Positions 16,611 through 30,734 of a DNA stretch of 46,631 nt are shown here, one piece after another. Source of the DNA: Rhodocyclaceae bacterium (GTDB taxonomy: Bacteria; Pseudomonadota; Gammaproteobacteria; Burkholderiales; Rhodocyclaceae); assembly GCA_030682175.1 (NCBI GenBank), contig JAUXOM010000010.1:1-46631 (forward strand), read 5' to 3'. The notes beneath the pieces were generated by a model that did not search any database, had not been told where the DNA came from, and saw nothing but the letters and a program-made list of their open reading frames with translations. The translations under genes were made by a program, and so were the position numbers. Position 1 is the stretch's first letter; every line of letters starts with the position of its first letter.

Positions 16611-17093
16611 TTACTTTGCGGTGATTTCGTGCGGCCGCAATTCCGGCACCAGCTTGTCGATGACGCCATTGACGAACTTGTGGCCATCGGTGCCGCCGTA
16701 GGATTTCGTCAGTTCGATGGCTTCGTTGATGACGACCCGGTAGGGCGTTTCGGGATGATGCTTCAGTTCGCAGGCGGCGATCAGCAGGATGCTGCGCTCG
16801 ACCGGCGATACCTCCGCCCAGGGCCGCTCGATATGCGGTTCAAGCAGTGCCTGCAAGGCGGCGGCGTCGCTCAGCACGCCATCGAGCAGGCTGTCGTACA
16901 GCTCGCGATTGACCCGGTCGAAACCGGCGACGGATTCGGACTGGGCAATGATGGCCGCCGCATCCTGGCCGCCGACGAGATGCTGATAGAGCCCCTGGAC
17001 GACGAATTCGCGCGCGCGATGACGCGGCGAAGTGGGCGGCTTGCCGCTGCCACCCCTGCCGCGATTTGCTCCGGTCGTGACGTCCGCGCTCAC
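16611..17093 (-). CDS. nusB: Transcription antitermination factor NusB, GTG start
   Basis: The 160-residue helical RNA-binding protein acts with NusE in rRNA antitermination. Core motifs are [71 protein letters not shown] (given here as landmarks: [31 protein letters not shown]). The N-terminus has a basic, Gly-rich extension. I chose the GTG at 17091-17093, whose GTGA overlaps the ribH stop, rather than the longer frame running into ribH. Confidence 0.93.
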
Positions 17094-17596
17094 TTGACCG
17101 CTTTCAGCAGATTCGCCATTTCGACCGCGCACTGGGCGGCTTCCATGCCCTTCTGGTGCATGCGCACCAGCGCCTGGTCGTCGTTCTCGACGGTCAGCAC
17201 GGCGTTGGCAATCGGAACGCCGGTGGTCAGCTGCACATCGGTGACGCCGCGCGCCGACTCGTTCGAGACGATTTCAAAATGGTAGGTCTCGCCGCGGATC
17301 ACGCAGCCCAGCGCCACCAGCGCATTGAACTTGCCGCTTTGCGCCATCGTCTGCAGCGTCAGCGGAATTTCCAGCGCACCCGGCACATTGACCAGCGTGA
17401 TGGCGGACGAGGCCACGCCGAGGCGGCGCAATTCCTGGCAACAACCCGCCAGCAGTCCCTCGCCAACTTCGCGGTTGAAGCGCGCCATGACGACGCCGAT
17501 CGTCAGCCCGGCACCGCTCAGGTCGGACTCGATCTCGCGCAGGTCGGCACAGCGTTCGCTGGGCGCGGGGGCGCTGGTATTCGGGATATAGGTCAT
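17090..17596 (-). CDS. ribH: 6,7-dimethyl-8-ribityllumazine synthase
   Basis: The 168-residue product condenses 3,4-dihydroxy-2-butanone 4-phosphate with the ribitylaminopyrimidine in riboflavin synthesis. Motifs: [48 protein letters not shown] (catalytic His), [19 protein letters not shown] and [20 protein letters not shown]. The ATG at 17596 fits; the frame upstream is repeat. It is the second gene after ribBX and overlaps nusB by four bases. Confidence 0.96.
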
Positions 17597-17688
17597 GATT
17601 CTGCCTCCTGAAGTGCCGTCCCGCAGGAGCTCATTTGCCAAATGAGCTCCCCCGTGGGGGCGGTGAATGTAGTGAGCGTGGAGGCCAT
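17597..17688. repeat. Family B-like spacer with a near-perfect hairpin between ribBX and ribH
   Basis: GGAGCTCATTTG (17626-17637) and CAAATGAGCTCC (17639-17650) are exact inverted repeats one base apart, giving a long stem with a small loop; CCCCG-TGGGGG follows. The right end GAGCGTGGAGGCCAT (about 17677-17691) is the family B right end with one substitution. In the ribBX-ribH mRNA it would be a strong intercistronic hairpin. Confidence 0.72.
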
Positions 17689-18783
17689 TCAGGCTTCCTC
17701 GGGAGAAAGATAGCCGCACACTTCGAGGCCGAAGCCGGCCATGCTCGGCATCTTGCGCGGGCTGGCCAGCAGCTTCATCTTGCCGACGCCGAGTTCGCGC
17801 AGAATCTGCGCGCCGATGCCATACAGACGCGGGTCCCATTTCTGTGCCGGATGGGCTTCGTCGGTATGCAGGGCATCGAGCAGGCCGGCGCCGGTCTCGT
17901 TGCGATGCAGCAGCACGACCACGCCGCAGTCGGCACGGGCGATGGCCTGCATGGCCTGATCGACGGTGAAGGTATGGCGGCGGCTCTTGCAGTCGAGGAA
18001 GTCGAGCACCGACACCGGTTCATGCACGCGAACTAAGGTTTCAAGCTCTGGACGAATCGCGCCGCGCGTCAGGGTCAGATGCACGTCGCCGCTGGTCTGG
18101 TCGCGGAAGGCGCGCAGCCGGAAACTGCCGTGCGTACAGACGACTTCCTTGTCGGCCACGCATTCGACGAGCTTCTCGTTTTCCGAACGGTAGTGGATCA
18201 GGTCGAGGATGGTGCCGATCTTCAGTCCATGTTCTTTCGCGAACTCCAGCAGGTCGGGCAGGCGCGCCATCGTGCCGTCGTCCTTGAGGATTTCGCAGAT
18301 CACGGCGGCCGGCTCGCAGCCCGCCATTTGCGCGAGGTCGCAGCCGGCCTCGGTGTGGCCGGCGCGCACCAGCACGCCGCCCTTTTGCGCCATCAGCGGG
18401 AAAATGTGGCCGGGCTGGACGATGTCCGCGGGCGTTGCATTCTTCGCCACGGCGGCCTGCACGGTGCGCGAGCGGTCTTGCGCCGAAATGCCGGTGGTGA
18501 CACCCTCGGTCGCCTCGATCGACATCGTGAAGGCGGTGCCGTGCTGCGCCTTGTTGTCCTTCACCATCAATGGCAGGTCGAGTTGCAGGCAGCGACTCTC
18601 GGTGAGCGTCAGGCAGATCAGGCCACGGCCAAATTTGGCCATGAAGTTGATTGCCTCGGGGGTCACATGTTCGGCCGCCAGGACGAGGTCGCCCTCGTTT
18701 TCGCGATCCTCCTCATCGACGAGGATCACCATGCGGCCGGCGCGCATGTCGGCAACGATTTCTAGGACGGGGCTGATGGTCAT
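17689..18783 (-). CDS. ribB: 3,4-dihydroxy-2-butanone 4-phosphate synthase with degenerate GTP cyclohydrolase II domain (RibBX type)
   Basis: The 364-residue product makes the four-carbon riboflavin precursor from ribulose 5-phosphate. The N-terminal ~200 residues hold the RibB motifs [69 protein letters not shown] and [11 protein letters not shown]. The C-terminal half has the GTP cyclohydrolase II fold remnants ([35 protein letters not shown]), but the SECLTGD and CDCG zinc ligands and the usual RQEGRGIGL loop are missing. This matches the RibBX arrangement of many Proteobacteria, in which the second domain is catalytically dead. No FMN riboswitch is possible in the 45-bp upstream gap. Confidence 0.93.
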
Positions 18784-18828: not shown

Positions 18829-21800
18829 TTACGCCGGGTCGCCCGAGTTTTCGCTGGCCACGCCGGGCGGCCCTTCCAGCCAGGCTTCCGGCGCGCGCCG
18901 CAGGTCCAGCGTCTGCGGGTAATCCGGATTGCGGCCCTCGTGGCGCACGTGCATGGGGCCGGGTGTGTGACCGTGATTCCAGAAGCGTGCCACGCGGCGC
19001 GCCTCGGCCTCGTTGGCGTTGACCGGGAAGCTGTCGTAGTTGCGGCCGCCGGGATGGGCGACGTGATAAGTGCAGCCGCCGATCGAGCGGCCGCTCCAGC
19101 TGTCCACCAGATCGAACACCAGCGGTGCCTGCACGCCGATGGTCGGATGCAGGCCGGAGGGCGGGCACCAGGCGCGATAGCGCAAGCCGGCGACATACTC
19201 GCCGCGGATGCCGGTGGCGGTCAGCGGCAGCGGGCGGCCATTGCAGGTAACGCTGTGGCGGGTGTCGTTCATGTTGCGCACCTTGACCTGCAGGCGCTCG
19301 ACCGAGGAATCGACATAGCGCGCCGTCCCGCCAGCGCCGACTTCTTCGCCGAGCACATGCCAGGGTTCGATGGCCTGGCGCAACTCGATTTCGATGCCGT
19401 GATAGACGACGGTGCCGTAACGCGGAAAACGGAATTCGAGGAAGGGTGCAAACCAGTCGAAGGCAAAAGCGTAACCGGCGCGCTGCAAATCGAGCACCAC
19501 GTCGTGCAGGTCCTGTGCCACGTAATGCGGCAACATGAAACGATCATGCAGTTCGGTGCCCCAGCGCATCAGGCTGCCCTGATGGGGCTTTTGCCAGAAA
19601 CGCGCCACCAGCGCCCGCAGCAGCAGCATCTGCAGCAGGGACATCTGTGCATGGGGCGGCATCTCGAAGCCGCGGAACTCGACGAGCCCGAGCCGCCCGG
19701 TGGCGCTGTCGGGCGAATACAGCTTGTCGATGCAGAACTCGGCGCGATGCGTGTTGCCGGAAAGATCGACCAGCAGGTTGCGCAACAGTCGATCGACCAG
19801 CCAGGGCTGCAGCGACTCCTCACCCGCCTTGAGCTTTTCCGCCATCTGCTGGAAGGCGATCTCCAGCTCGTAAAGGCTTTCGTGGCGTGCCTCGTCAACC
19901 CGTGGCGCCTGGCTGGTCGGGCCGATGAACAGGCCGGAGAACAGGTAGGAAAGCGCCGGATGGTTCTGCCAGTAGCCGATCAGGCTCATCAGCAAATCGG
20001 GCCGCCGCAGGCAGGGTGAATCGGCGGGAGAGGCCGCGCCGAGCGTGACATGATTGCCGCCGCCGGTGCCGGTGTGGCGACCGTCGAGCATGAACTTTTC
20101 GGCGCCGAGGCGGGTCAGGCGCGCTTCTTCATAGAGCGTGAAGGTGTTCTCCACCAGCTGCGGCCAGCTGCTGGCGGGATGGATGTTGACCTCGATCACG
20201 CCGGGGTCGGGCGTGATGCGGAATTCCTTGAGGCGCGGGTCGCTGGGCGGCGTGTAGCCCTCCAGCCGCAGGGGCAGCTTGAGCGCGGCGGCGGTGGTTT
20301 CGATCGCCGTCAGCAGGGTGACGAAATCTTCCAGCAGGGGCACGGGCGGCAGAAAGACGCACAGCACGCCGTCGCGCACTTCCGCGCACAGGGCGGTGTG
20401 GATGATTTCCCTGGGATCGTAGGCGGCCCGGGGTTTCGCTTTGGGCGGCTTCTCCGCCGCGACATCAGGCAGGGGCCCGGGCGTATCGAAGGGATCGCGG
20501 CCGAGGTCTTCTTCCTGGTCCGCGGGCGCCACCCAGGGCAGTGAGGCCAAGGGCAGCCGCAGGCCGAGCGGCGAATCGCCGGGAATCAGATACAGATGTT
20601 CGCGCCGCAGCGGCCAGGGGCTGGAGCGGAAGCGGGCCGAAAAGTCGGCGTGACCGGAGGGAATCCCCGTGGGGCTGGCCGGACGGCGTTTTTTCGCCGC
20701 TGGCAGGGCTTTTAGCGGCAGCACGTAACCCGCTGGCGCGCCGAGGTCGCGCTCGATCAGTTTCGCCACGCGACGGCGTTCGTCGGCCTGCTTCAGGTCG
20801 AACTTGAGCGGGTCGAAATTTTCCGGCCAGCGCTGTTCCGCGTCGATGATGCGGGTGACGTCCTCGTAGGCGAGGATGATGAAGCTGTCATCCAGCGCGA
20901 TTTCCTGCGCGAGCCGCTGCATGAAGCGCAAGCCATCCGCGCTGGTCTGCGCGCCGCCGGCATCGGTGGTGACGAGGAGCCGGCGGTTTTGCCACAAGGG
21001 CTTGCCGTCGGTGCGCCAGTAACAGCCCAGCGCCCAGCGCGGCAGGGGCTCGCCGGGATACCACTTGCCCTGGCCATAATGCAGCATGGCGCCGGGCGCG
21101 AAGTGGCCCTGCAAGCGGTTGAGCAAGGCGTCGGCGAGCTCGAGCTTTTTCTCCGAAAGCGCGGTGAAATTCCACTCGGCCCCCTCCATGTCGTCGATCG
21201 AGACAAAGGTCGGTTCGCCGCCCATCGTCAGGCGCACGTCATGCCTGGCCAGTTCGGCATCCACCTGATGGCCGAGATCGAGCACCGCCTGCCATTGCGC
21301 TTCGGTGTAGGGTTGGGTGACGCGCGGGTCTTCGTGAATGCGCGTGACCTGCATGGAAAAATCGAAATGGGTCGTGCATACCTCCGTGCCGCCGATCACC
21401 GGTGCCGCCGAGGCGGGCTGTGCCGTGCAGGCCAGCGGAATGTGGCCTTCGCCGGCCAGCAGGCCCGAGGTCGGATCGAGGCCGATCCAGCCGGCGCCGG
21501 GGATGAACACTTCCGTCCAGGCATGCAGGTCGGTGAAATCGTGATCGGTGCCGGAGGGGCCGTCGAGTGCCTTGACGTCGGCTTTCAACTGGATCAGGTA
21601 GCCCGAGGCGAAGCGTGCCGCGAGGCCGAGGTGGCGCAAAACCTGCACCAGCAGCCAGGCCGAATCGCGACAGGAGCCGCGCTTCAGTTCCAGGGTTTCT
21701 TCCGGCGTTTGCACCCCCGCTTCGAGACGCACGATGTAACCGACATCCTGCAGCACGCGCTGGTTGATGCCGACCAGCATGTCGATGGTGCGCATCTCCT

Positions 21801-22221
21801 GGCCGAGCAGTTCCTGGCGGGTGCGGGAAATCCAGTCGGCCAGCAGGGGGGTGGCGGCGTCGACTTCAAGATAGGGGCCCAGCTCGCGCTTCAGGCCGTC
21901 CGGGTAGGTGAATGGGAAATTTTCGGCAGTTGCATCGATGAAAAAGTCGAAGGGGTTGATCACCGTCATGTCGGCGACCAGATCGACCGTGATTTCCAGC
22001 GCTGCGGCCTTTTCCGGAAAGACCAGGCGCGCAACCCAGTTGCCGAAGGGATCCTGTTGCCAATTGAGAAAATGTCCGGCCGGTGCGACGTGCAGCGAAT
22101 AGCCGTGTATGGGCGTGCGGCTGTGGGCCGCCGGCCGCAGTCTTACCTCGTGCGGAAAGAGCGAGACAGACCGGTCAAAGGCGTAACGGGTGATATGCCG
22201 AAGGGCGACGCGGATGGACAT
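18829..22221 (-). CDS. Transglutaminase-like / DUF2126 giant protein
   Basis: The 1130-residue product begins with a bacterial transglutaminase N-terminal domain (residues ~1-90), then a papain-like transglutaminase core with the triad Cys184 (RGSCRDSAW), His233 (DLHAWTEVFIPG) and Asp249 (GWIGLDPTSGL). Residues ~290-1110 form a DUF2126 region, with landmarks TMGGEPTFVSIDDMEGAEWN, HYGQGKWYPGEPLPRWALG, RHTGTGGGNHVTLG and RFMLPHYVAQDLHDVV. It belongs to a family found next to Anbu, alpha-E and ATP-grasp genes and predicted to handle peptide or isopeptide bonds; the substrate is unknown. It contains a long family A repeat (20640-20688) translated as SPTGIPSGHADFSARF, and a short one at 19321-19343. 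The stop lies 45 bp from ribBX. Confidence 0.93.
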   Translation of the reverse strand: MSIRVALRHITRYAFDRSVSLFPHEVRLRPAAHSRTPIHGYSLHVAPAGHFLNWQQDPFGNWVARLVFPEKAAALEITVDLVADMTVINPFDFFIDATAENFPFTYPDGLKRELGPYLEVDAATPLLADWISRTRQELLGQEMRTIDMLVGINQRVLQDVGYIVRLEAGVQTPEETLELKRGSCRDSAWLLVQVLRHLGLAARFASGYLIQLKADVKALDGPSGTDHDFTDLHAWTEVFIPGAGWIGLDPTSGLLAGEGHIPLACTAQPASAAPVIGGTEVCTTHFDFSMQVTRIHEDPRVTQPYTEAQWQAVLDLGHQVDAELARHDVRLTMGGEPTFVSIDDMEGAEWNFTALSEKKLELADALLNRLQGHFAPGAMLHYGQGKWYPGEPLPRWALGCYWRTDGKPLWQNRRLLVTTDAGGAQTSADGLRFMQRLAQEIALDDSFIILAYEDVTRIIDAEQRWPENFDPLKFDLKQADERRRVAKLIERDLGAPAGYVLPLKALPAAKKRRPASPTGIPSGHADFSARFRSSPWPLRREHLYLIPGDSPLGLRLPLASLPWVAPADQEEDLGRDPFDTPGPLPDVAAEKPPKAKPRAAYDPREIIHTALCAEVRDGVLCVFLPPVPLLEDFVTLLTAIETTAAALKLPLRLEGYTPPSDPRLKEFRITPDPGVIEVNIHPASSWPQLVENTFTLYEEARLTRLGAEKFMLDGRHTGTGGGNHVTLGAASPADSPCLRRPDLLMSLIGYWQNHPALSYLFSGLFIGPTSQAPRVDEARHESLYELEIAFQQMAEKLKAGEESLQPWLVDRLLRNLLVDLSGNTHRAEFCIDKLYSPDSATGRLGLVEFRGFEMPPHAQMSLLQMLLLRALVARFWQKPHQGSLMRWGTELHDRFMLPHYVAQDLHDVVLDLQRAGYAFAFDWFAPFLEFRFPRYGTVVYHGIEIELRQAIEPWHVLGEEVGAGGTARYVDSSVERLQVKVRNMNDTRHSVTCNGRPLPLTATGIRGEYVAGLRYRAWCPPSGLHPTIGVQAPLVFDLVDSWSGRSIGGCTYHVAHPGGRNYDSFPVNANEAEARRVARFWNHGHTPGPMHVRHEGRNPDYPQTLDLRRAPEAWLEGPPGVASENSGDPA
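20640..20688 (+). repeat. Family A long-form repeat inside the DUF2126 gene
   Basis: The unit is AAAAGTCGGCG, then TGACCGGAGGGAATCCCC, GTGGGG, and CTGGCCGGACGGCG. It equals the short family A unit with about 24 bp inserted after GTCGGCG. The same long form occurs at 39885-39935 and, inverted, at 41693-41744. It is in frame and translated within a Pro/Ser-rich linker. Confidence 0.8.
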
Positions 22222-22305
22222 GGGCGGTAACCGAAAAAGAAAGTAACGGCAACCCCATGCAATGAACGTGCCGCAAGGCCGTCAGTCAGGGAAATGTCGT
22301 GGCGT

Positions 22306-23088
22306 TCAGGAACCCGAAGGGAAGCTGATGACGCGCTTCTCCTCGCCAGCATCAAAATTGTCGACTTCCCATTCGAAGCGCGGCAGGCCCTGCAAGGCCT
22401 GCATCAGGCCTTCGTTCCAGCGCTCCGACAATTGGCGGGCGAAGGGATCGTCTTCGCTGAAATAAATGCGCCGGCCGGCATTGAGGCTGTCGCGCTGATA
22501 GAGCAGCAATTCGACCGGAGGGCCGACGGTGACGTTGCTGCGGATGGTCGAGTTCATCGACACCAGCGCGCAACGCGCCGCCCGCTCGAGAGAGACTTCG
22601 CGCTTGATGACGCGGTCGAGGATGGGCTTGCCGTACTTGATCTCGCCGATCTGCAGAAAGGGGTGCTCGGCCGACTCGTGGATGTAGTTGCCCTGCGGGT
22701 AGACCATGAACATTTCAGGCGCCTGGCCGGCAATCTGCCCGGCGAAGACGAAGGTGGCCTCGAAATTGGTGGTGCCGGTGTCGCGCGTGGAGTGCAGTTT
22801 CTGCACCTGCGTGCTGATCATGCCGAGATAGTCGGCCGCCTCCTGCATGGAGTTGACCGATAGCAGGTTGGGCAGCAGCGCGGCGGCCACATCGCCGTTG
22901 AGTTTCTTGATGACGGCCTGGGTCGTGGCCAGGTTGCCGGCGGAAAGCAGCACGAAGAATCGCTCACCCGGCCAGACGAAGCTGTGCATCTTCGAATAGA
23001 CGCTGACGTTGTCGGTGCCCGCGTTGGTGCGCGAATCGGAGCAGAGGACAAGGCCCTCATTGATATTGATGGCAAGGCAGTAGGTCAT
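22306..23088 (-). CDS. Proteasome-like peptidase Anbu (ancestral beta subunit)
   Basis: The 260-residue product is a 20S-proteasome/HslV-fold N-terminal nucleophile hydrolase. It begins MTYCLAININEGLVLCSDSRTNAG; removal of Met1 would expose Thr2 as nucleophile, and the Asp-Ser-Arg-Thr strand is the conserved NTN pocket. Further family features are RFFVLLSAGNLATTQAV, FVFAGQIAGQAPEMFMVYPQGN and YGKPILDRVIKREVSLERAARCALVSMNSTIRSNVTVG. Anbu proteins assemble into open rings or spirals in species studied, with no known substrate. It is 84 bp upstream of the transglutaminase gene on the same strand and divergent from the ATP-grasp gene over 175 bp. Confidence 0.93.
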   Translation of the reverse strand: MTYCLAININEGLVLCSDSRTNAGTDNVSVYSKMHSFVWPGERFFVLLSAGNLATTQAVIKKLNGDVAAALLPNLLSVNSMQEAADYLGMISTQVQKLHSTRDTGTTNFEATFVFAGQIAGQAPEMFMVYPQGNYIHESAEHPFLQIGEIKYGKPILDRVIKREVSLERAARCALVSMNSTIRSNVTVGPPVELLLYQRDSLNAGRRIYFSEDDPFARQLSERWNEGLMQALQGLPRFEWEVDNFDAGEEKRVISFPSGS

Positions 23089-23263
23089 TGGCGCAAATCA
23101 TGAATATGTCGTGCCCCATTGTAAACGCTCGCAGCCGGGATGCCGCGAGAAATGCCGCAAGGCCGTAAATTGCCCGGAATGGCGGGGCTGGTGCGTTTGT
23201 TGCATTGCCGGTAGGGGTAAGTGTATGCAACGTCCCCGCACCGCCAACGACACAGGAAACAAT
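23089..23263. promoter_or_regulatory. Divergent control region of the Anbu and ATP-grasp genes
   Basis: The 175-bp spacer separates the two arms of the island and must carry both promoters. I cannot pick a convincing -10/-35 pair. It contains TGCCGCAAGGCCGT at 23153-23166, the same 14-mer as at 22269-22282 on the other side of the Anbu gene, and a clear Shine-Dalgarno AGGAAAC (23254-23260) before the ATG at 23264. Confidence 0.5.
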
Positions 23264-24715
23264 ATGCCCATCAAGCTGCACGGTTATCCACAGCCTGATA
23301 TCTGCGACGAACTGCTCGACGCGGCACTGCAGCCGCGTCCGGCCGCGCGCGTGCTCTTCGACTACGTCAACCGCCTGGGCACCGCCGAACTCATGGCCCG
23401 CCGCGCAAGCGTGGACGCCGCCATCATGGCGATGGGCATTACCTTTACGGTCTATAGCGATGCGGGCAACATCGACCGCGTGTGGCCTTTCGACATCATT
23501 CCGCGCACCATGTCCTTGAAGGAATGGGCGCATATCGATGCCGGCCTCAAGCAGCGCCTGACCGCGCTCAACCTGTTCATCGACGACCTTTACAACGCCC
23601 AGCGCATCGTCAAGGATGGCGTGTTCCCGCTTGAGGTGCTGGCGGGTTCGCAGAATTTTCGCGCCCAGTGTCGCGGCTTGACGCCCCACTTTGGGGTCTG
23701 GGCGCATGTCTGCGGCACCGATCTGGTGCGCGACAAGGATGGCACGGTATACGTTCTCGAAGACAATCTGCGCGTTCCCTCCGGCGTCTCCTACATGCTG
23801 GAAAACCGCCAGCTCATGAAGCGCTTGTTCCCCGAGCTGTTCAAGTCGAGCGACATCCTGCCGGTGGATGACTATCCGACCCGGCTTTACGACACGCTGG
23901 CGGCGCTCTCGCCGCGCCCGGGCGAGCGCCCGGTCATTGTCGTGTTGACGCCCGGCATCTACAACTCGGCCTATTTCGAGCACAGCTATCTGGCGCAGAA
24001 GATGGGCGCGGTCCTGGTCGAGGGCTCCGACCTCGTCGTGCAGAGCGACGACTGCGTCTACATGAAGACGATCGCGGGGGTCAGTCGCGTCGATGTGATC
24101 TACCGGCGCGTCGATGACGATTTCCTTGATCCCGAAGCCTTCCGCCCCGACTCTTCGCTCGGCGTTCCCGGCCTGATGCGCGCCTGGCGCGCCGGCAAGG
24201 TCGGCATCGCGAACGCACCGGGCGCCGGCGTGGCCGATGACAAGGTGGTCTATACCTTTGTGCCGCAAATCATCAAGTATTACCTCGACCAGGACCCGCT
24301 CCTGCCCAATGTCCCGAGCTGGATGTGCATGTACGATGATCAGCGCGACCATGTGCTGGCCAATCTGGACAAGCTGGTGGTCAAACCGGCCAACGAGTCC
24401 GGCGGCTATGGGATGTTGATCGGACCGCGCGCCAGCGTCGAAGAGCGCCGGCAATTCGCCGACCTGATCCGCGCCAATCCGCGCAACTACATGGCGCAGC
24501 CGACCCTGTCGATTTCGACCGCGCCGACGCTGTTCGGCGACCGGTTCGAGCCGCGCCATATCGACCTGCGGCCTTTCGTGCTGCAATCGAAAGATCTCCA
24601 TGTCACCGCCGGCGGACTCACGCGCGTGGCGCTGCGCGCGGGTTCGCTGGTGGTCAACTCATCCCAGGGTGGCGGCAGCAAGGACACCTGGATCGTCAAT
24701 ACCCGGGAGGCATGA
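23264..24715 (+). CDS. Circularly permuted ATP-grasp type 2 protein (DUF404/DUF407 family)
   Basis: The 483-residue product is an ATP-grasp fold ligase of the circularly permuted class, expected to join a carboxylate to an amine through an acyl phosphate. Recognisable stretches are RTMSLKEWAHIDAGLKQR, LFIDDLYNAQRIVKDGVFP, VLEDNLRVPSGVSYMLENR, DVIYRRVDDDFLDPEAFRP, ANAPGAGVADDKVVYTFVPQ, LDKLVVKPANESGGYGMLIG (nucleotide-binding) and NSSQGGGSKDTWI at the end. The ATG at 23264 has a good AGGAAAC ribosome-binding site; longer in-frame starts lack one. The stop overlaps the alpha-E start (ATGATG), so the two are coupled. The natural substrate is not known. Confidence 0.93.
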   Translation: MPIKLHGYPQPDICDELLDAALQPRPAARVLFDYVNRLGTAELMARRASVDAAIMAMGITFTVYSDAGNIDRVWPFDIIPRTMSLKEWAHIDAGLKQRLTALNLFIDDLYNAQRIVKDGVFPLEVLAGSQNFRAQCRGLTPHFGVWAHVCGTDLVRDKDGTVYVLEDNLRVPSGVSYMLENRQLMKRLFPELFKSSDILPVDDYPTRLYDTLAALSPRPGERPVIVVLTPGIYNSAYFEHSYLAQKMGAVLVEGSDLVVQSDDCVYMKTIAGVSRVDVIYRRVDDDFLDPEAFRPDSSLGVPGLMRAWRAGKVGIANAPGAGVADDKVVYTFVPQIIKYYLDQDPLLPNVPSWMCMYDDQRDHVLANLDKLVVKPANESGGYGMLIGPRASVEERRQFADLIRANPRNYMAQPTLSISTAPTLFGDRFEPRHIDLRPFVLQSKDLHVTAGGLTRVALRAGSLVVNSSQGGGSKDTWIVNTREA

Positions 24716-25674
24716 TGCTGTCGCGCGTCGCCGAAAACCTCTACTGGATGGGCCGCTATCTCGAGCGTGCGGAAAACACCGCGCGCTTCATCAACAGCAC
24801 GACCCAGGTGCTGCTCGACCTGCCACGGGATGCCTCATTCGGCTGGAACGTGCTGCTCAAGGTGGCCGGTCTCGATCACGAATTCGCCAGTCGCCACGAG
24901 CACGCCGACGAGGACAGCCTGATGTCCTTCCTGGTCGAGGACGAAGCGAATCCCAGCTCGATCCTGTCGAGCATCCAGAATGCCCGCGAGAATGCGCGGA
25001 CCGTGCGCGAAGTGCTGCCGATGGAAATCTGGGAGCGCATCAACAGCCTCTACCTGTACATCCGCGACAACGCGCCGCGCGTCAAGCAGGGGCGCGGCCC
25101 GCGCAACGATGTGCTGCTCGGCGTCATCGGCCGGCGCGAGTCGATCATCGGGCTGCTGACGGGATCGATGAGTCGCGATGTGGCCTACCAGCTGATCAAG
25201 ATGGGCCGCAATCTCGAACGCGCCGACATGACCACGCGCATCATCGATGTCAATGCCGCCGTGCAATTGCCCGCCGATCCCGCCCAGGCTTCACTGACCA
25301 CGCTGGGCATGTGGATGAGCACCTTGAATGCCCTGTCGGCCTATCAGATGTTTCGCACCCATGTCGGCGTGCATGTGCGGGGTGACGCCGTGGTGAACTA
25401 CCTGCTGAGAGATCCGCACTTTCCGCGCACGGTGCTGTTCTGCCTGGAGCAGATCGAAGGCAGCCTGTCAGTGCTGCCCGACCATGCGCCGGCCATGCGG
25501 CGGGTGCGCCATGCCTGGCGACGCCTCGCCGGCATGCAGCTTGACGGCCTCAAGCCAGCCGTTCTGCACGAATACCTGGATCAGGTACAAAGCGACCTGG
25601 CCGCCATTCATGGCGCCGTGGCCAAACAATACTTCCATCGGCATCAGAGCGACAGCACCGGCCAGGCCCAATAG
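24712..25674 (+). CDS. Alpha-E domain protein (DUF403)
   Basis: The 320-residue, mostly helical protein starts MMLSRVAENLYWMGRYLERAENTARF, the hallmark of alpha-E proteins, and has NARENARTVREVLPMEIWERIN, LTGSMSRDVAYQLIKMGRNLERADM and a C-terminal helical bundle. It is nearly always encoded directly after a circularly permuted ATP-grasp gene, as here, where the two overlap by four bases. It is thought to be a partner or scaffold for that enzyme; no reaction is known. The second ATG (24715) is an equally possible start. Confidence 0.93.
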   Translation: MMLSRVAENLYWMGRYLERAENTARFINSTTQVLLDLPRDASFGWNVLLKVAGLDHEFASRHEHADEDSLMSFLVEDEANPSSILSSIQNARENARTVREVLPMEIWERINSLYLYIRDNAPRVKQGRGPRNDVLLGVIGRRESIIGLLTGSMSRDVAYQLIKMGRNLERADMTTRIIDVNAAVQLPADPAQASLTTLGMWMSTLNALSAYQMFRTHVGVHVRGDAVVNYLLRDPHFPRTVLFCLEQIEGSLSVLPDHAPAMRRVRHAWRRLAGMQLDGLKPAVLHEYLDQVQSDLAAIHGAVAKQYFHRHQSDSTGQAQ

Positions 25675-25777: not shown

Positions 25778-27601
25778 TCACGGCGCATCTTTAGAGGCGC
25801 GGCTGATCTCATTGAAATTTTGCGCCACGTCGAGCGCCGCCAAGAGCTCATTCATCTTGATCGGCTTGGTGAGATAGCGCAAGAATCCCGCCCCCAAACC
25901 CTTCTCGACATCGTGCGGCATGGCATTGGCACTCAGTGCAATCACCGGGATGTGTGCGGTTTCCGGGTCGTCGGCGAGGATTTTCAAAGCGTCGAGACCG
26001 CTGATGCCCGGCAGATTGATGTCCATCAGGATCACATCCGGCTTGGCGCTATGGGCAATCTCGATGCCGCTAATACCGTCCGTGGCACTCAAAAAGCGGA
26101 TATTGGGCTGGCGCGCAACGATCTCCTCGACCAGCATCAGGTTGGCCGGGTTGTCCTCGACATAGAGCAAGGTACGCAGCGGCGCAGCGATTTGACTCTG
26201 CGCGCGAGTCACTTCCTCCGATAAAACCGTAACGGACTGAGCAGCGGCCGTCAGCTTCAGTTCAATCCAGAACACACTGCCTTCCCCGACCGTGCTTTCA
26301 GCGCCAATGCTTCCCCCCATGGCTTCGATCAGCCGCTTGCTTACCGTCAGGCCGATGCCGGTACCTTCGATGACGCCGGCCTGTTGTCCAAGGCGATTGA
26401 ACGGCTGGAAAAGCTGCGCCAGCTGTTCCGGAGCCAATCCATGGCCGCTATCGCGGATGCCGATACGAATCGAATCCGCAAGGCTCGGCGCACACTCCAC
26501 AACGACCGTTTTGCCCGCCGCGTTGTATTTGATCGCATTGGAAAGCAGGTTGATGAGCACCTGCTTTACGCGTAGCCGGTCGGCGTGGACAAAAGGCGGG
26601 GTTTCAAAGCAGGGAAAAATCACTTCGATGCCAAGCTTTTGTGCCTGCGGAGCGATCATGCTCGCGCATTCGCCCAGGACTTCGGCCAGTGATACCGGCT
26701 CCATCGACAACACAACTTTTCCGGACTCGATCACGGCAAGATCGAGAATTTCGTTGATCAACTCCAACAGGTACCACCCGGCTTTGAGCACCTGATCGAT
26801 GCTACGTTGCTGAGACGGTGTCGGCTGAGGCGTGCCGGAGGCCAGGAGTTGGCCAAAACCGAGGATTGCACTCAGCGGTGTGCGAAGTTCATGACTCATG
26901 CTGGACAGGAAAACCGATTTTGCAAGATTGGCCTTTTCAGCCACGCACATGGCACGTCCAAGTTCAAGGTTCTTTTCGAGCAACGCCCGATCAAGCGCTT
27001 CGCGCTCGGCTTCAACCCGCTTGCGCTCGGAAATGTCGTTGATCACCAGGCGCATCACCCGCATGCCGTCTTCGTCTTGTACCGCCGTGGCGGCCAGTTG
27101 CGTCCAGAAAGCTGTGGCGTCGGGTTTGATCATCTGCAAATCGCAGCATTGCGGTTGCCCGGTCTCAATCAGCTGTTTGCGGAACCGGTAGTAGATGTCC
27201 TGATCTTCTCTGAAGATGAAGCGGGAGAAGGGCTGCCTGACCAGCGCGCTCCGGGCGACGCCCAGTAAAACGGCGGCGTTGAGATTGGCTTGCAGGATCA
27301 ACCCGCGTTCGCCGAGCGTGCAGTAACCCACCGGCGCCAAATCATAGAGGTCGAAATAGCGGGCCCGCGAAGCTTCCAGTTCAACCTGCGCCCGACGCAA
27401 TTCCTCGTTTTGCATCTCCAGCTCGATCTGATGCACACGCAACTCGTGGAGCATCTGCCGCGTGGCTTCAGGGGAAACCGCCGCAAGGCTCTCCGCTGAC
27501 TCCGCCGCATTGGCGCGGGCGACTGCTTCGGCCTGCTGACGCAGCAACTGCGCCGCGCTGGCCGCAGGAGCACTGTTTTCGAGTGGATTATCTTTGGTCA
27601 T
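25778..27601 (-). CDS. PAS-domain hybrid histidine kinase with C-terminal receiver
   Basis: The 607-residue product has an N-terminal coiled-coil helix (~45-80), a PAS domain (~80-192, LYDLAPVGYCTLGERGLILQ), a HisKA dimerisation domain with phospho-acceptor His237 (SHELRTPLSAILGFG), a HATPase_c domain with the N box around Asn355 (NLLSNAIKYN), G1 DSGHG and G2 EGTGIGLTVSKRL, and a receiver domain with Asp527 (VILMDINLPG) and Lys579 (YLTKP). No transmembrane segment is seen, so it is cytoplasmic. Its ATG overlaps the CheB/CheR fusion stop (ATGA), indicating a coupled pair. No separate output response regulator is encoded nearby. Confidence 0.95.
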   Translation of the reverse strand: MTKDNPLENSAPAASAAQLLRQQAEAVARANAAESAESLAAVSPEATRQMLHELRVHQIELEMQNEELRRAQVELEASRARYFDLYDLAPVGYCTLGERGLILQANLNAAVLLGVARSALVRQPFSRFIFREDQDIYYRFRKQLIETGQPQCCDLQMIKPDATAFWTQLAATAVQDEDGMRVMRLVINDISERKRVEAEREALDRALLEKNLELGRAMCVAEKANLAKSVFLSSMSHELRTPLSAILGFGQLLASGTPQPTPSQQRSIDQVLKAGWYLLELINEILDLAVIESGKVVLSMEPVSLAEVLGECASMIAPQAQKLGIEVIFPCFETPPFVHADRLRVKQVLINLLSNAIKYNAAGKTVVVECAPSLADSIRIGIRDSGHGLAPEQLAQLFQPFNRLGQQAGVIEGTGIGLTVSKRLIEAMGGSIGAESTVGEGSVFWIELKLTAAAQSVTVLSEEVTRAQSQIAAPLRTLLYVEDNPANLMLVEEIVARQPNIRFLSATDGISGIEIAHSAKPDVILMDINLPGISGLDALKILADDPETAHIPVIALSANAMPHDVEKGLGAGFLRYLTKPIKMNELLAALDVAQNFNEISRASKDAP

Positions 27602-30600
27602 CGCACACCGCCAACGATGGCCCGCTCCGTGGTGGCAATCGCATACAACTGCCCGGCTTCATTGAGCAGCGCGGTGGAGACGATCGAGACCTCGACAATC
27701 TTGCCATCTTTGGTCAGCCGTTGCGACCGATATGGCTCCAGAACTTCCGCCTGACCCAGTTGAACCAGCGTCGCCAGGGCTCCCGCGCGCAAGTTTTCCG
27801 GAATCCGCTCATGCACATTCATCAGCAGGGCTTCCGCCTCACTCCAGCCATACATGCGCTCGGCGCCGGGGTTCCAGGCCAGCATGCGTCCTTCCAGATC
27901 CTGCACCGTGACGGCATCGTGCGCATCGCGCACGACCACGGCCAGCCGCAGTAAATCATTGGCCTTATGCAGCGCGTCCCGGATGTGAAACATCTCCGTA
28001 ATATCCACAAAAGAAATCACCGCGCCCTCGATGACATTGTCCAGTGTGCGATAGGGCTGGATGCGCATCGAGTAGCGTTTTCCATCCGTGGTCTGCAGCT
28101 CCACCTCTTTCGGGATCAGCGTGTTCAATACCCCCTGAATGTCGGCCACCAGGCTGGCATAGCCGACCAGGTTGGAAACGATGTGTGCCACCGGTCGCCC
28201 CAGGTCGCTGGTGATCAGGTTGATGATCGTGGTGGTGGCCGGGGTAAAGCGCAGGATGCGCAGTTGATGGTCCACAAACACGGTACCGACGCCGGTGCCG
28301 GCCAGCAGGTTGTTCATGTCGTTATTGGCCCGCGACAGATCAGTGACCTTGGTTTGCAACTCGGTATTGACGGTGGCCAGCTCCTCATTGACTGACTGCA
28401 ACTCTTCCTTGGACGTTTCCAGTTCTTCGTTGGTCGATTGCAATTCTTCATTGACCGACTGCATTTCTTCATTCGAGGATTTGAGCTCTTCGTTGGAGCT
28501 TTCCAGTTCCTCATGGGTGGTTTGCAGGTATTCGTCCTTGGCCCGCAGTTCCTGTTTGAGTGCTGCGATGCGTGCCTCGGCATCGGTCTCGGGGGCGTTC
28601 GACGCGCCGTCGGGTGCCGCGGCAAGAGGTGTCGGCGACACCTGTTCTGGCGGTGCATCTTCCAGGACAACCAGGTACAAATCCGTCTCCGGCGATTCAG
28701 CCGCATCAGCTGCCAGCGGGCAGACCGTCAGGTTGACCCGGGTGAAGTGTCCGTTGGTTTTGACGTTCAGGCCGGGGCAACGGACGACCGCCTTGTTGCC
28801 GGCGACCCGGTGAAGGGCCAGGGTCAGATCGCGGCGCAATCCTTCTCGCGCCATTTTGAGAATGTTGCTGACGCCCATTTCACCGGGCATCAGCTCCAGA
28901 TACATGCCCGAACGGCCGTGCATGTAAAGAATGTCACCCTTGGCGTTAACCAACGCGCTGGTCGGCGCGAGCTGCTGCAACAACGCCTGCTCGGTAAGCT
29001 CCCGCAGGGAGCGCTTGGGGATGGCATGTTTTACGTCATCCCGCGGGCTTGTCTTGCCACTCGCCTCCACACCCCCTGATGCAGTCAGCGGTGGTAAAAA
29101 ACGGCCCAAGGCAGCACGCTGCGTGTCGTGAAAGTTTTCTGTACGCTGATAGACCTTGGATTTACGGTCAATCACTGAAAACAGCTCGGAAAACTCGCCG
29201 ATGCCTTCGGAGGTGCCGAGAAACAGGATGCCTCCCGGTTTCAGTGCGTAATGGAACAGGGGGATGAGTTTCTTCTGTAGCGCCGCACTGAGATAGATCA
29301 TCAGGTTGCGGCAACTGATCAGGTCGAGCCTGGAGAACGGCGGGTCCTTGATGACATCCTGCTCGGAGAACACCAGCATGTCGCGGATGCTCTTGTGAAT
29401 ACGGTAGGAGCTGCCATCCGGCTCGGCACTAAAAAAGCGTGCCAGACGTTCCGGCGTAATGTCGGTCGCGATGCTGGCCGGGTAAATCCCGGCGCGTGCC
29501 GCGGCAATTGCCCGACTGTCGATGTCGGTGGCAAAAACCTGCAGGGCATAGCTTTGCTTGAGTGCCTCCATGCGCTCTTGCAGCAGGATGGCGATTGAAT
29601 AAGCCTCCTCGCCCGTGGAACATCCCGTCGACCAGATACGCAGCACGGCACCGCTGGGTTTGCCTTCAAAGAGCCGGGGAATGATCTGCTCCTCCAGCAC
29701 CTTGAACGCCTCGGGGTCGCGGAAGAAATTGGTCACGCCGATGAGCAGGTCGCGGAAGAGGGCTTCGACCTCGGCCGGCGTCTGCTGCAGATACTTGACG
29801 TAGCCGTCGATCATTTCGATCTGGTGCACCGCCATGCGGCGCTCAATCCGCCGGTTGATGGTACTCGGCTTGTACTGCGAGAAGTCGTGGCCGATCTGGG
29901 CGCGCAGCAGGATGAAGATCTTTTTCAGTGCGCTCTCGTCCTTGGGTGAATGCGGCGTCGCGGAACGGGGCAACTTCCCGAAGGCGTGAGCGGCATAAGC
30001 AATCAACTGCGCGGCCATTTCGGCCGGCGGCAGTTCGTAGTCCACCAGGCCAGTGCCGATTGCGCTGCGCGGCATGCCGTCAAACTCGGTCGATTCGGGG
30101 TTCTGCGCCATGACCATGCCGCCCGCGCCCTTGATCGCGCGTACGCCCAGGGTGCCGTCGCTGCCGGTGCCGGAAAGCACGATGCCGATGGCGCTTTCAT
30201 GCTGATCTTGCGCCAGCGAGCGAAAAAAGAAATCAATCGGCAGGCGCTGGCCGCGAGGCGCGGTAGGCTCAAGCAATTGCAGCGTACCGTTGAGAAATGC
30301 CATGTCGGTGTTCGGCGGGATGATGTAGGCACAGTTGGCTTGCACGACCATGCCGTCCTCGACCTCGAACACCTGCATGCGGGTGTAGCGGCGGATTAGT
30401 TCGGTGAGGAGGCTTTTGTGATCCGGGGCCAGGTGTTGCACCAGGACAAAGGCCATGCCGGGATCGGCGTCGGCCGGCATGCCGGAGAAGAAGGCTTCAA
30501 ACGCTGCCAGGCCGCCGGCTGAAGCGCCAATGCCGACGATCGGGAACACCGGGGCTGGAATGTTTTGAGGCAGGTCGGTTGAATTGGGCGCAATCTCTAT

Positions 30601-30642
30601 GGTTTGCGGTTCGGAATTTTTAACTGGTCTTTTTTTTGTCAC
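27598..30642 (-). CDS. CheB-CheR-PAS fusion protein (chemotaxis methylesterase/methyltransferase type)
   Basis: The 1014-residue product opens with a CheB methylesterase domain with no receiver: catalytic Ser41 (GIGASAGG), His70 (VLVQHLAPDHKS) and Asp162 (SGTGSDGT). A CheR methyltransferase follows (~240-500; INRRIERRM, VTNFFRDPEAF, IWSTGCSTGEEAYSIA, CRNLMIYL). Next is a long heptad coiled coil (~690-770) of repeated SSNEELKSxNEE units, then PAS domains ending in AIATTERAIVGG. I chose the GTG at 30642, which follows AAGGGGAAGTT; a GTG at 30666 would add eight residues. Such fusions feed PAS-kinase pathways rather than canonical flagellar chemotaxis; no chemoreceptor lies in the window. Confidence 0.94.
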   Translation of the reverse strand: MTKKRPVKNSEPQTIEIAPNSTDLPQNIPAPVFPIVGIGASAGGLAAFEAFFSGMPADADPGMAFVLVQHLAPDHKSLLTELIRRYTRMQVFEVEDGMVVQANCAYIIPPNTDMAFLNGTLQLLEPTAPRGQRLPIDFFFRSLAQDQHESAIGIVLSGTGSDGTLGVRAIKGAGGMVMAQNPESTEFDGMPRSAIGTGLVDYELPPAEMAAQLIAYAAHAFGKLPRSATPHSPKDESALKKIFILLRAQIGHDFSQYKPSTINRRIERRMAVHQIEMIDGYVKYLQQTPAEVEALFRDLLIGVTNFFRDPEAFKVLEEQIIPRLFEGKPSGAVLRIWSTGCSTGEEAYSIAILLQERMEALKQSYALQVFATDIDSRAIAAARAGIYPASIATDITPERLARFFSAEPDGSSYRIHKSIRDMLVFSEQDVIKDPPFSRLDLISCRNLMIYLSAALQKKLIPLFHYALKPGGILFLGTSEGIGEFSELFSVIDRKSKVYQRTENFHDTQRAALGRFLPPLTASGGVEASGKTSPRDDVKHAIPKRSLRELTEQALLQQLAPTSALVNAKGDILYMHGRSGMYLELMPGEMGVSNILKMAREGLRRDLTLALHRVAGNKAVVRCPGLNVKTNGHFTRVNLTVCPLAADAAESPETDLYLVVLEDAPPEQVSPTPLAAAPDGASNAPETDAEARIAALKQELRAKDEYLQTTHEELESSNEELKSSNEEMQSVNEELQSTNEELETSKEELQSVNEELATVNTELQTKVTDLSRANNDMNNLLAGTGVGTVFVDHQLRILRFTPATTTIINLITSDLGRPVAHIVSNLVGYASLVADIQGVLNTLIPKEVELQTTDGKRYSMRIQPYRTLDNVIEGAVISFVDITEMFHIRDALHKANDLLRLAVVVRDAHDAVTVQDLEGRMLAWNPGAERMYGWSEAEALLMNVHERIPENLRAGALATLVQLGQAEVLEPYRSQRLTKDGKIVEVSIVSTALLNEAGQLYAIATTERAIVGGVR

Positions 30643-30734
30643 AACTTCCCCTTTGCGCCCAGGCACATTCGTTCAGCTTAGCCGCTAACCAAGGAAGTGG
30701 GGGATTTTCTGCACCACGCTTGATGCTGGAAAAG

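Follow-up and report, generated by a model that had tools for sequence, protein, structure and literature searches.

An Anbu, ATP-grasp, alpha-E and transglutaminase gene island in a Rhodocyclaceae bacterium, a candidate nitrogen-responsive system for making and breaking amides

A 46,631-nucleotide stretch of a Rhodocyclaceae genome (contig JAUXOM010000010.1 of assembly GCA_030682175.1, positions 1 to 46,631; hereafter the window) carries a four-gene island encoding Anbu, which is a proteasome-fold N-terminal nucleophile (Ntn) hydrolase, a circularly permuted ATP-grasp ligase, an alpha-E protein, and a bifunctional protein that joins a transglutaminase (TG) fold to a glutamine synthetase (GS)-like DUF2126 region (TG-DUF2126). 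Here, we present a computational analysis of this island and its relatives, from which we lean towards a make-and-break cycle, induced by nitrogen scarcity, for an amide-linked, peptide-like product. The reading is based on the strict co-occurrence of the two ATP-grasp and alpha-E families, the conserved catalytic residues of the ATP-grasp and the hydrolases, and sigma54-type sites upstream of ATP-grasp and TG-DUF2126. The system was put forward in 2009 and is known from many bacteria; the island is an unremarkable example of it, and the additions of this analysis bear on the family more than on this window.

All four genes are intact. On the reverse strand, Anbu (22306-23088; 260 aa, with an MTYC start) is followed 84 bp further on by TG-DUF2126 (18829-22221; 1130 aa), while the ATP-grasp (23264-24715; 483 aa) and alpha-E (24712-25674; 320 aa) run along the forward strand, the two genes sharing 4 bases where alpha-E starts and the ATP-grasp stops. 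The two pairs diverge from a control region of 175 bp (23089-23263), given an ATP-grasp start at 23264; start codons were picked by rule, and alignments were automatic. Each protein has its Pfam match, at 1310 bits for DUF2126, 85 for Bact_transglu_N, 58 for Transglut_core, 544 for CP_ATPgrasp_2, 284 for Alpha-E and 23.6 for Proteasome (cut-off 22.4). An earlier note on this DNA had described the four-gene island, the coupling of the ATP-grasp to its alpha-E partner, an exposed Thr2 in Anbu and a Cys184-His233-Asp249 triad in the transglutaminase, and all of these are borne out by the open reading frames (ORFs), the Pfam matches, the 4-base overlap and the residues themselves. Its two divergent transcripts with one control region stand as far as the 175-bp region is concerned, but are possibly an incomplete picture, as TG-DUF2126 has a sigma54-like site of its own in the 84-bp gap behind Anbu.

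Across 274 genomes of the class, the window's genome included, alpha-E and ATP-grasp are held by exactly the same 79 genomes. DUF2126 is found in 50, all within the 79, and Anbu in 69, of which 66 are within the 79 and the three outside include two partial hits. Bact_transglu_N has matches in 62 genomes, 61 of them within the 79, the sole outside match being weak and broken (weak secondary hits inside already counted genomes were left out). These counts are far from random, as the earlier note had expected of the families, and rule out a random distribution of the four relative to each other. Since 29 of the 79 genomes are without DUF2126 and 13 without Anbu, the ATP-grasp/alpha-E pair is the invariant core of the system. 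The Fisher tests used here ignore phylogeny, except for one with a single genome per family, given below.

Anbu was described in 2008 and has been discussed as a possible proteasome ancestor. With the Pfam Proteasome score so close to its cut-off, the identity of the window's protein is secured by matches to solved Anbu structures in the PDB (5loy, 3e-75; 5nyw, 3e-60; 5lox, 2e-59). A misread HslV or proteasome is ruled out, the five PDB matches being Anbu or Anbu-kind 'peptidase' entries. Thr2, Asp18 and Lys33 are conserved in 65, 66 and 63 of 67 Anbu relatives, respectively. For such relatives an open split-ring assembly has been published (PMC5666114, PMC6376114; published work is cited here from the excerpts available of each paper). 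Two genomes of the same genus, both without ATP-grasp and alpha-E, contain Anbu-like fragments (G022:C47 and G170:C5) in which only the first 124-126 residues are matched, and which are possibly decaying Anbu genes.

In TG-DUF2126, residues 1-302 (21316-22221, reverse strand) form a transglutaminase/cysteine-protease domain, whose C184-H233-D249 triad is conserved in 73 of 73 DUF2126 proteins. A GS-like ligase region follows at about residues 304-949 (19375-21312, reverse strand). The structure model of the protein (predicted local distance difference test, pLDDT, 72.9; predicted template modelling score, pTM, 0.72) was used for a fold search, in which DUF2126 matched the glutamine synthetase fold, with gamma-glutamyl-methylamide synthetase (GmaS) among the matches. 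As modelled, DUF2126 is thus a ligase-like domain and the predicted second ligase of the island; the earlier note had named DUF2126 but not counted it as such, which the fold of the model corrects.

The first ligase, the ATP-grasp, has a solved relative in 3n6x (1e-152), named putative glutathionylspermidine synthase. Seven core residues (E166, N168, K374, G380, G381, G383 and N465), which we take to have metal and ATP roles, are all present in 163 of 163 split members, the window's included. Phosphate release from ATP has been published for a homologous ATP-grasp (PMC6376114). The alpha-E protein is an internal duplication, with one repeat at residues 6-148 (24727-25155, forward strand; MGRYLERAENTAR) and another at residues 157-302 (25180-25617, forward strand; MGRNLERADMTTR). 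The two halves align to each other over 140 columns at a probability of 99.1% (E 8.7e-19; hhalign with a 104-sequence alignment), the best of 30 column-shuffled controls reaching 4.0%, and each half in the window has an MGRxLERA[ED] stretch, the ER motif being E18-R19 and E169-R170. The alpha-E model is all-helical (pLDDT 95.3, pTM 0.92), with two similar sets of seven helices, and a search for a solved structure related to alpha-E found none.

In many genomes a fused ATP-grasp-alpha-E paralog stands beside DUF2126; it is present in 21 of the 79 genomes, 19 of these with DUF2126, and at loci from several phyla. Only 1 of 50 fused ATP-grasps (L088) retains the seven core residues in full, the other 49 keeping at most 3, and judging by these residues the fused paralog has probably lost catalysis. 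Those 49 form one clade with support 1.0 on a long branch; that all fused proteins form one clade is false when the 50 are taken together, as L088 breaks it. The window has no fused paralog, and a genome search found one ATP-grasp of the CP_ATPgrasp_2 family in the window's genome. At another locus (L029, G081 C39, about 7.5-8.8 kb), an intact DUF2126 module is accompanied by an additional ATP-grasp and alpha-E copy that is broken by stops.

When the other ORFs of 173 loci (93 class and 80 named) were clustered, one recurrent neighbour, found at 30 loci (including L022, L060 and L065) and mostly adjoining alpha-E, Anbu or DUF2126, combined a zinc ribbon with Peptidase_Mx, and all 30 proteins have an HExxH motif. 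Some Peptidase_Mx hit occurs in 47 of the 274 genomes; leaving out 9 with short partial hits only, 7 of which are outside the alpha-E genomes, a full-length protein is present in 38, all of them within the 79 (Fisher 9e-25), and another component is no more than 3 kb away in 25 of these 38. Peptidase_Mx is rarer where there is a clear transglutaminase match (odds ratio 0.14, p 5e-4; 7 of the 62 Bact_transglu_N genomes, with weak hits only, left out) or DUF2126 (0.20, p 0.001), and with one genome for each of 61 families the odds ratios are 0.11 and 0.16, respectively. Counting the weak transglutaminase matches shrinks the anticorrelation to an odds ratio of 0.27 (p 0.03). No association with Anbu was seen across the class genomes, and the class-wide profile search gave no Peptidase_Mx hit in the window's genome.

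Every one of the 79 genomes has at least one of Anbu, TG/DUF2126 and full-length Peptidase_Mx, which is weak evidence alone because independent partners would leave only about 2 without. Five genomes have neither Anbu nor a clear transglutaminase, and all five have Peptidase_Mx; this is suggestive only, because the five come from just 3 families and a weak transglutaminase match exists elsewhere in two of these genomes (keeping weak matches reduces the five to three, all with Peptidase_Mx). A limited literature search for Peptidase_Mx with this system returned nothing apparently related, which does not show that the pairing is unpublished. A conserved protein of about 420 aa also often adjoins the alpha-E, Anbu or transglutaminase gene (L034:3230-4498, minus strand, and likewise in L012, L016, L017, L019, L029, L058, L059, L064, L099, L109 and L110), and the one member scanned had no Pfam or NCBIfam match.

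The link to nitrogen starts from two sigma54-like -24/-12 sites in the island, each scoring 15/16. One, TGGTGCGTTTGTTGCA, is found 60-75 bp upstream of the ATP-grasp start (23189-23204, forward strand) and is one of 2 exact TGGYRYNNNNNTTGCW matches in the window; the other, CGGCACGTTCATTGCA, lies upstream of TG-DUF2126 (22258-22273, reverse strand) and has one mismatch to that pattern, a class of match of which the window has 33, compared with 12.9 in shuffles. A pattern fitting both sites, written after both had been seen and thus post hoc, occurs 13 times in the 3.49-Mb genome, including twice at the island, compared with 6 matches for its backward control. Among relatives, a site scoring at least 13.5 (on a weighted consensus; thresholds of 13, 13.5, 14 and 14.5 were computed) stands upstream of ATP-grasp in 28 of 83 class loci, against a mean of 1.65 in shuffles, 3 on the reverse strand and 21 of 877 control ORFs. 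The named loci, which may share species with the class set, give 25 of 79 against 24 of 944 control ORFs, the controls being ORFs of at least 200 aa near the loci and not all real genes. In the class loci, to which the remaining promoter tests were confined, sites precede TG-DUF2126 in 11 of 48 (11 of 38, then 0 of 10), Anbu in 2 of 56 (2 of 50 and 0 of 6) and the small TG in 1 of 33. Both rpoN and a true NtrC (693.9 bits, cut-off 558.6) are encoded in the window's genome. Strong sigma54-like sites also occur at two further loci of this genome, 16 bp before a gene that itself matches the NtrC-family search (L188) and 131 bp before a 226-aa ORF (L189).

We take the Pseudomonas putida proteins PP_2687 and PP_2688, hypothetical in the paper that reports their induction, to be alpha-E and ATP-grasp, and COG3484 to be Anbu. 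Under nitrogen limitation PP_2686 (TG), PP_2687 and PP_2688 rose 11- to 15-fold, while Anbu was flat in the wild type (1.12-fold) and rose 4.81-fold in a relA/spoT mutant (PMC7801951). In another comparison, of nitrogen- with carbon-limited P. putida, PP2685 (Anbu) was up 11.1-fold (PMC3325844). The ntrC mutant of Burkholderia cenocepacia had DUF404/407 (ATP-grasp), DUF403 (alpha-E) and two TG genes down 6- to 9.4-fold, and sigma54 control extended to 95% of the top NtrC genes (PMC5491218). A 2025 survey of the sigma54 regulon includes the proteasome-type protease COG3484 (PMC12316311). The sites fit the B. cenocepacia data and the induction in P. putida, while the rise of PP2685 and the COG3484 entry, like the rpoN mutant discussed below, speak against the picture. 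Nitrogen control itself is thus already known, and what we add, tentatively, is the gene-by-gene pattern, with sites before the ligase genes and rarely before Anbu.

In the cycle we favour, the ATP-grasp would activate a carboxylate with ATP, and alpha-E, its obligate partner, would hold or present the substrate. The GS-like ligase of TG-DUF2126 would then extend or cap the product, the transglutaminase-fold Cys-His-Asp domain of the same chain would transfer or hydrolyse it, and Anbu would trim it via its N-terminal threonine, with NtrC as the putative activator of the island. What we infer is how alpha-E acts, in which order the steps run, that NtrC is the activator here and that all four proteins serve a single product. 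The ligase and hydrolase logic, which the earlier note had put forward and which was already published, gains from the co-occurrence, the conserved catalytic residues and a third, unrelated peptidase joining the same ligase pair.

Several observations weigh against this cycle. We know of no substrate or product for the system. By score, the sigma54 site is absent from 55 of 83 class and 54 of 79 named loci, some of which may perhaps be explained by an ATP-grasp that is not first in its operon, and a further ten TG-DUF2126 loci, whose contigs carry no ATP-grasp within 8 kb (two of the ten are contig-edge pieces), all lack a site. An NtrC-site scan of the window fell below chance expectation, and an NtrC palindrome with at most one mismatch was not clearly enriched in sigma54-positive loci (9 of 28, against 11 of 55 negative ones). 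A P. putida rpoN mutant still induced PP_2686-PP_2688 14- to 20-fold (PMC7801951). None of three standard peptidase substrates was cleaved by the Anbu proteins examined, and pull-downs from the Yersinia set co-expressed in Escherichia coli gave no specific partners or complexes, as far as the excerpts of that paper go (PMC6376114).

A realistic possibility, if short of probable, is a small-molecule route in which an amine, polyamine or amino acid would be amidated for nitrogen storage or salvage and the hydrolases would free the nitrogen again, modelled on gamma-glutamyl-amide or glutathionylspermidine metabolism. Nitrogen control, GmaS among the fold matches of DUF2126 and the name given to 3n6x all suit such a route, as does the pairing of a ligase with a cysteine amidase on one chain, found in bifunctional glutathionylspermidine synthetase/amidase (GspS); there, however, the ligase is an ATP-grasp, whereas the present protein couples its transglutaminase fold to a GS-like domain. 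Protein tagging, which would be one form of the favoured cycle, appears rather unlikely: the ligases would make a tag, either a peptide or an amino acid, for the TG/GS protein to attach to proteins, and Anbu would remove it or degrade the tagged proteins. It is already a published proposal, as cited in PMC6376114 and PMC5666114, it would explain why two ligases occur with both a TG fold and a proteasome-fold hydrolase, and a known ATP-grasp/peptidase pair, RimK/RimB, has a protein as its target (PMC12239564). However, pull-downs were negative and the operon contains no AAA+ ATPase in the portion of the report available (PMC6376114), the excerpts of the literature on the system report no conjugate, and systems without Anbu or without TG exist. 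Of the tag synthesis, attachment and removal envisaged by the earlier note, the ligase and hydrolase part therefore stands, while protein attachment is unsupported by the pull-downs and the tested Anbu proteins. The nitrogen link, which that note had not considered, speaks for a role in metabolism no less than for a tag.

Anbu could also be a general protease of nitrogen-starved cells, linked to its neighbours by shared regulation only, which the 11.1-fold rise of PP2685 and the presence of COG3484, presumably Anbu, in the sigma54 survey would fit. We regard this as improbable, given that only 3 of 69 Anbu genomes fall outside the ATP-grasp/alpha-E set, two of them with partial hits, that Anbu was inactive on standard substrates, and that it stayed flat where its neighbours rose 11- to 15-fold.

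The system was reportedly proposed by Iyer et al. in 2009 as amidoligase peptide tagging with a circularly permuted ATP-grasp, a GS-like ligase, an Ntn hydrolase and alpha-E. All four components are present and adjacent in the window, where DUF2126 models as GS-like as proposed, and nothing was found there to depart from that description, which we take from citations in PMC6376114, PMC5666114 and PMC3597751; the sigma54 sites, alpha-E duplication, pseudo-ligase paralog and Peptidase_Mx partner are apparent additions that come mostly from relatives. The Anbu operon of Yersinia bercovieri likewise has Anbu, ATP-grasp, alpha-E and a transglutaminase-like protein, but the window differs by its divergent layout (PMC6376114). 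B. cenocepacia I35_5080-83 and P. putida PP_2685-2688 share ATP-grasp, alpha-E and TG and are NtrC-dependent or low-nitrogen-induced, although Anbu is not named in the former cluster in the excerpts of its report (PMC5491218). RimK/RimB and RloC/RloA also pair an ATP-grasp ligase with a peptidase, but an aspartic one, and the available parts of that source do not mention alpha-E or Anbu (PMC12239564).

Directly next to the island, at 25778-30666, two genes with overlapping ends encode a PAS histidine kinase/response regulator and a CheB-CheR-PAS protein; kinases of this sort turn up repeatedly around the relatives' loci, but such genes are common anyway. The other flank (17090-18783) holds riboflavin genes for DHBP synthase/GTP cyclohydrolase II and lumazine synthase.

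The excerpts of the Anbu literature consulted still report no Anbu substrate. The obligate ligase pair, the nitrogen control and the tie to a zinc peptidase indicate where and when the role of Anbu may be sought, namely at low nitrogen, among amide products and in strains without alpha-E, and the split, pseudo-ligase and Peptidase_Mx variants offer natural tests of each part's role. More tentatively, and with some doubt, we suggest that the family may run one nitrogen-scarcity amide cycle with interchangeable hydrolases, in which the invariant ATP-grasp/alpha-E pair would be served by three unrelated hydrolases, Anbu, transglutaminase and the zinc Peptidase_Mx. Transglutaminase and Peptidase_Mx would tend to stand in for one another, and in many relatives the fused ATP-grasp-alpha-E protein, catalytically dead, would act as a scaffold next to the GS-like ligase. 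If so, Anbu would be the dedicated hydrolase of the product of this cycle, and not a proteasome.

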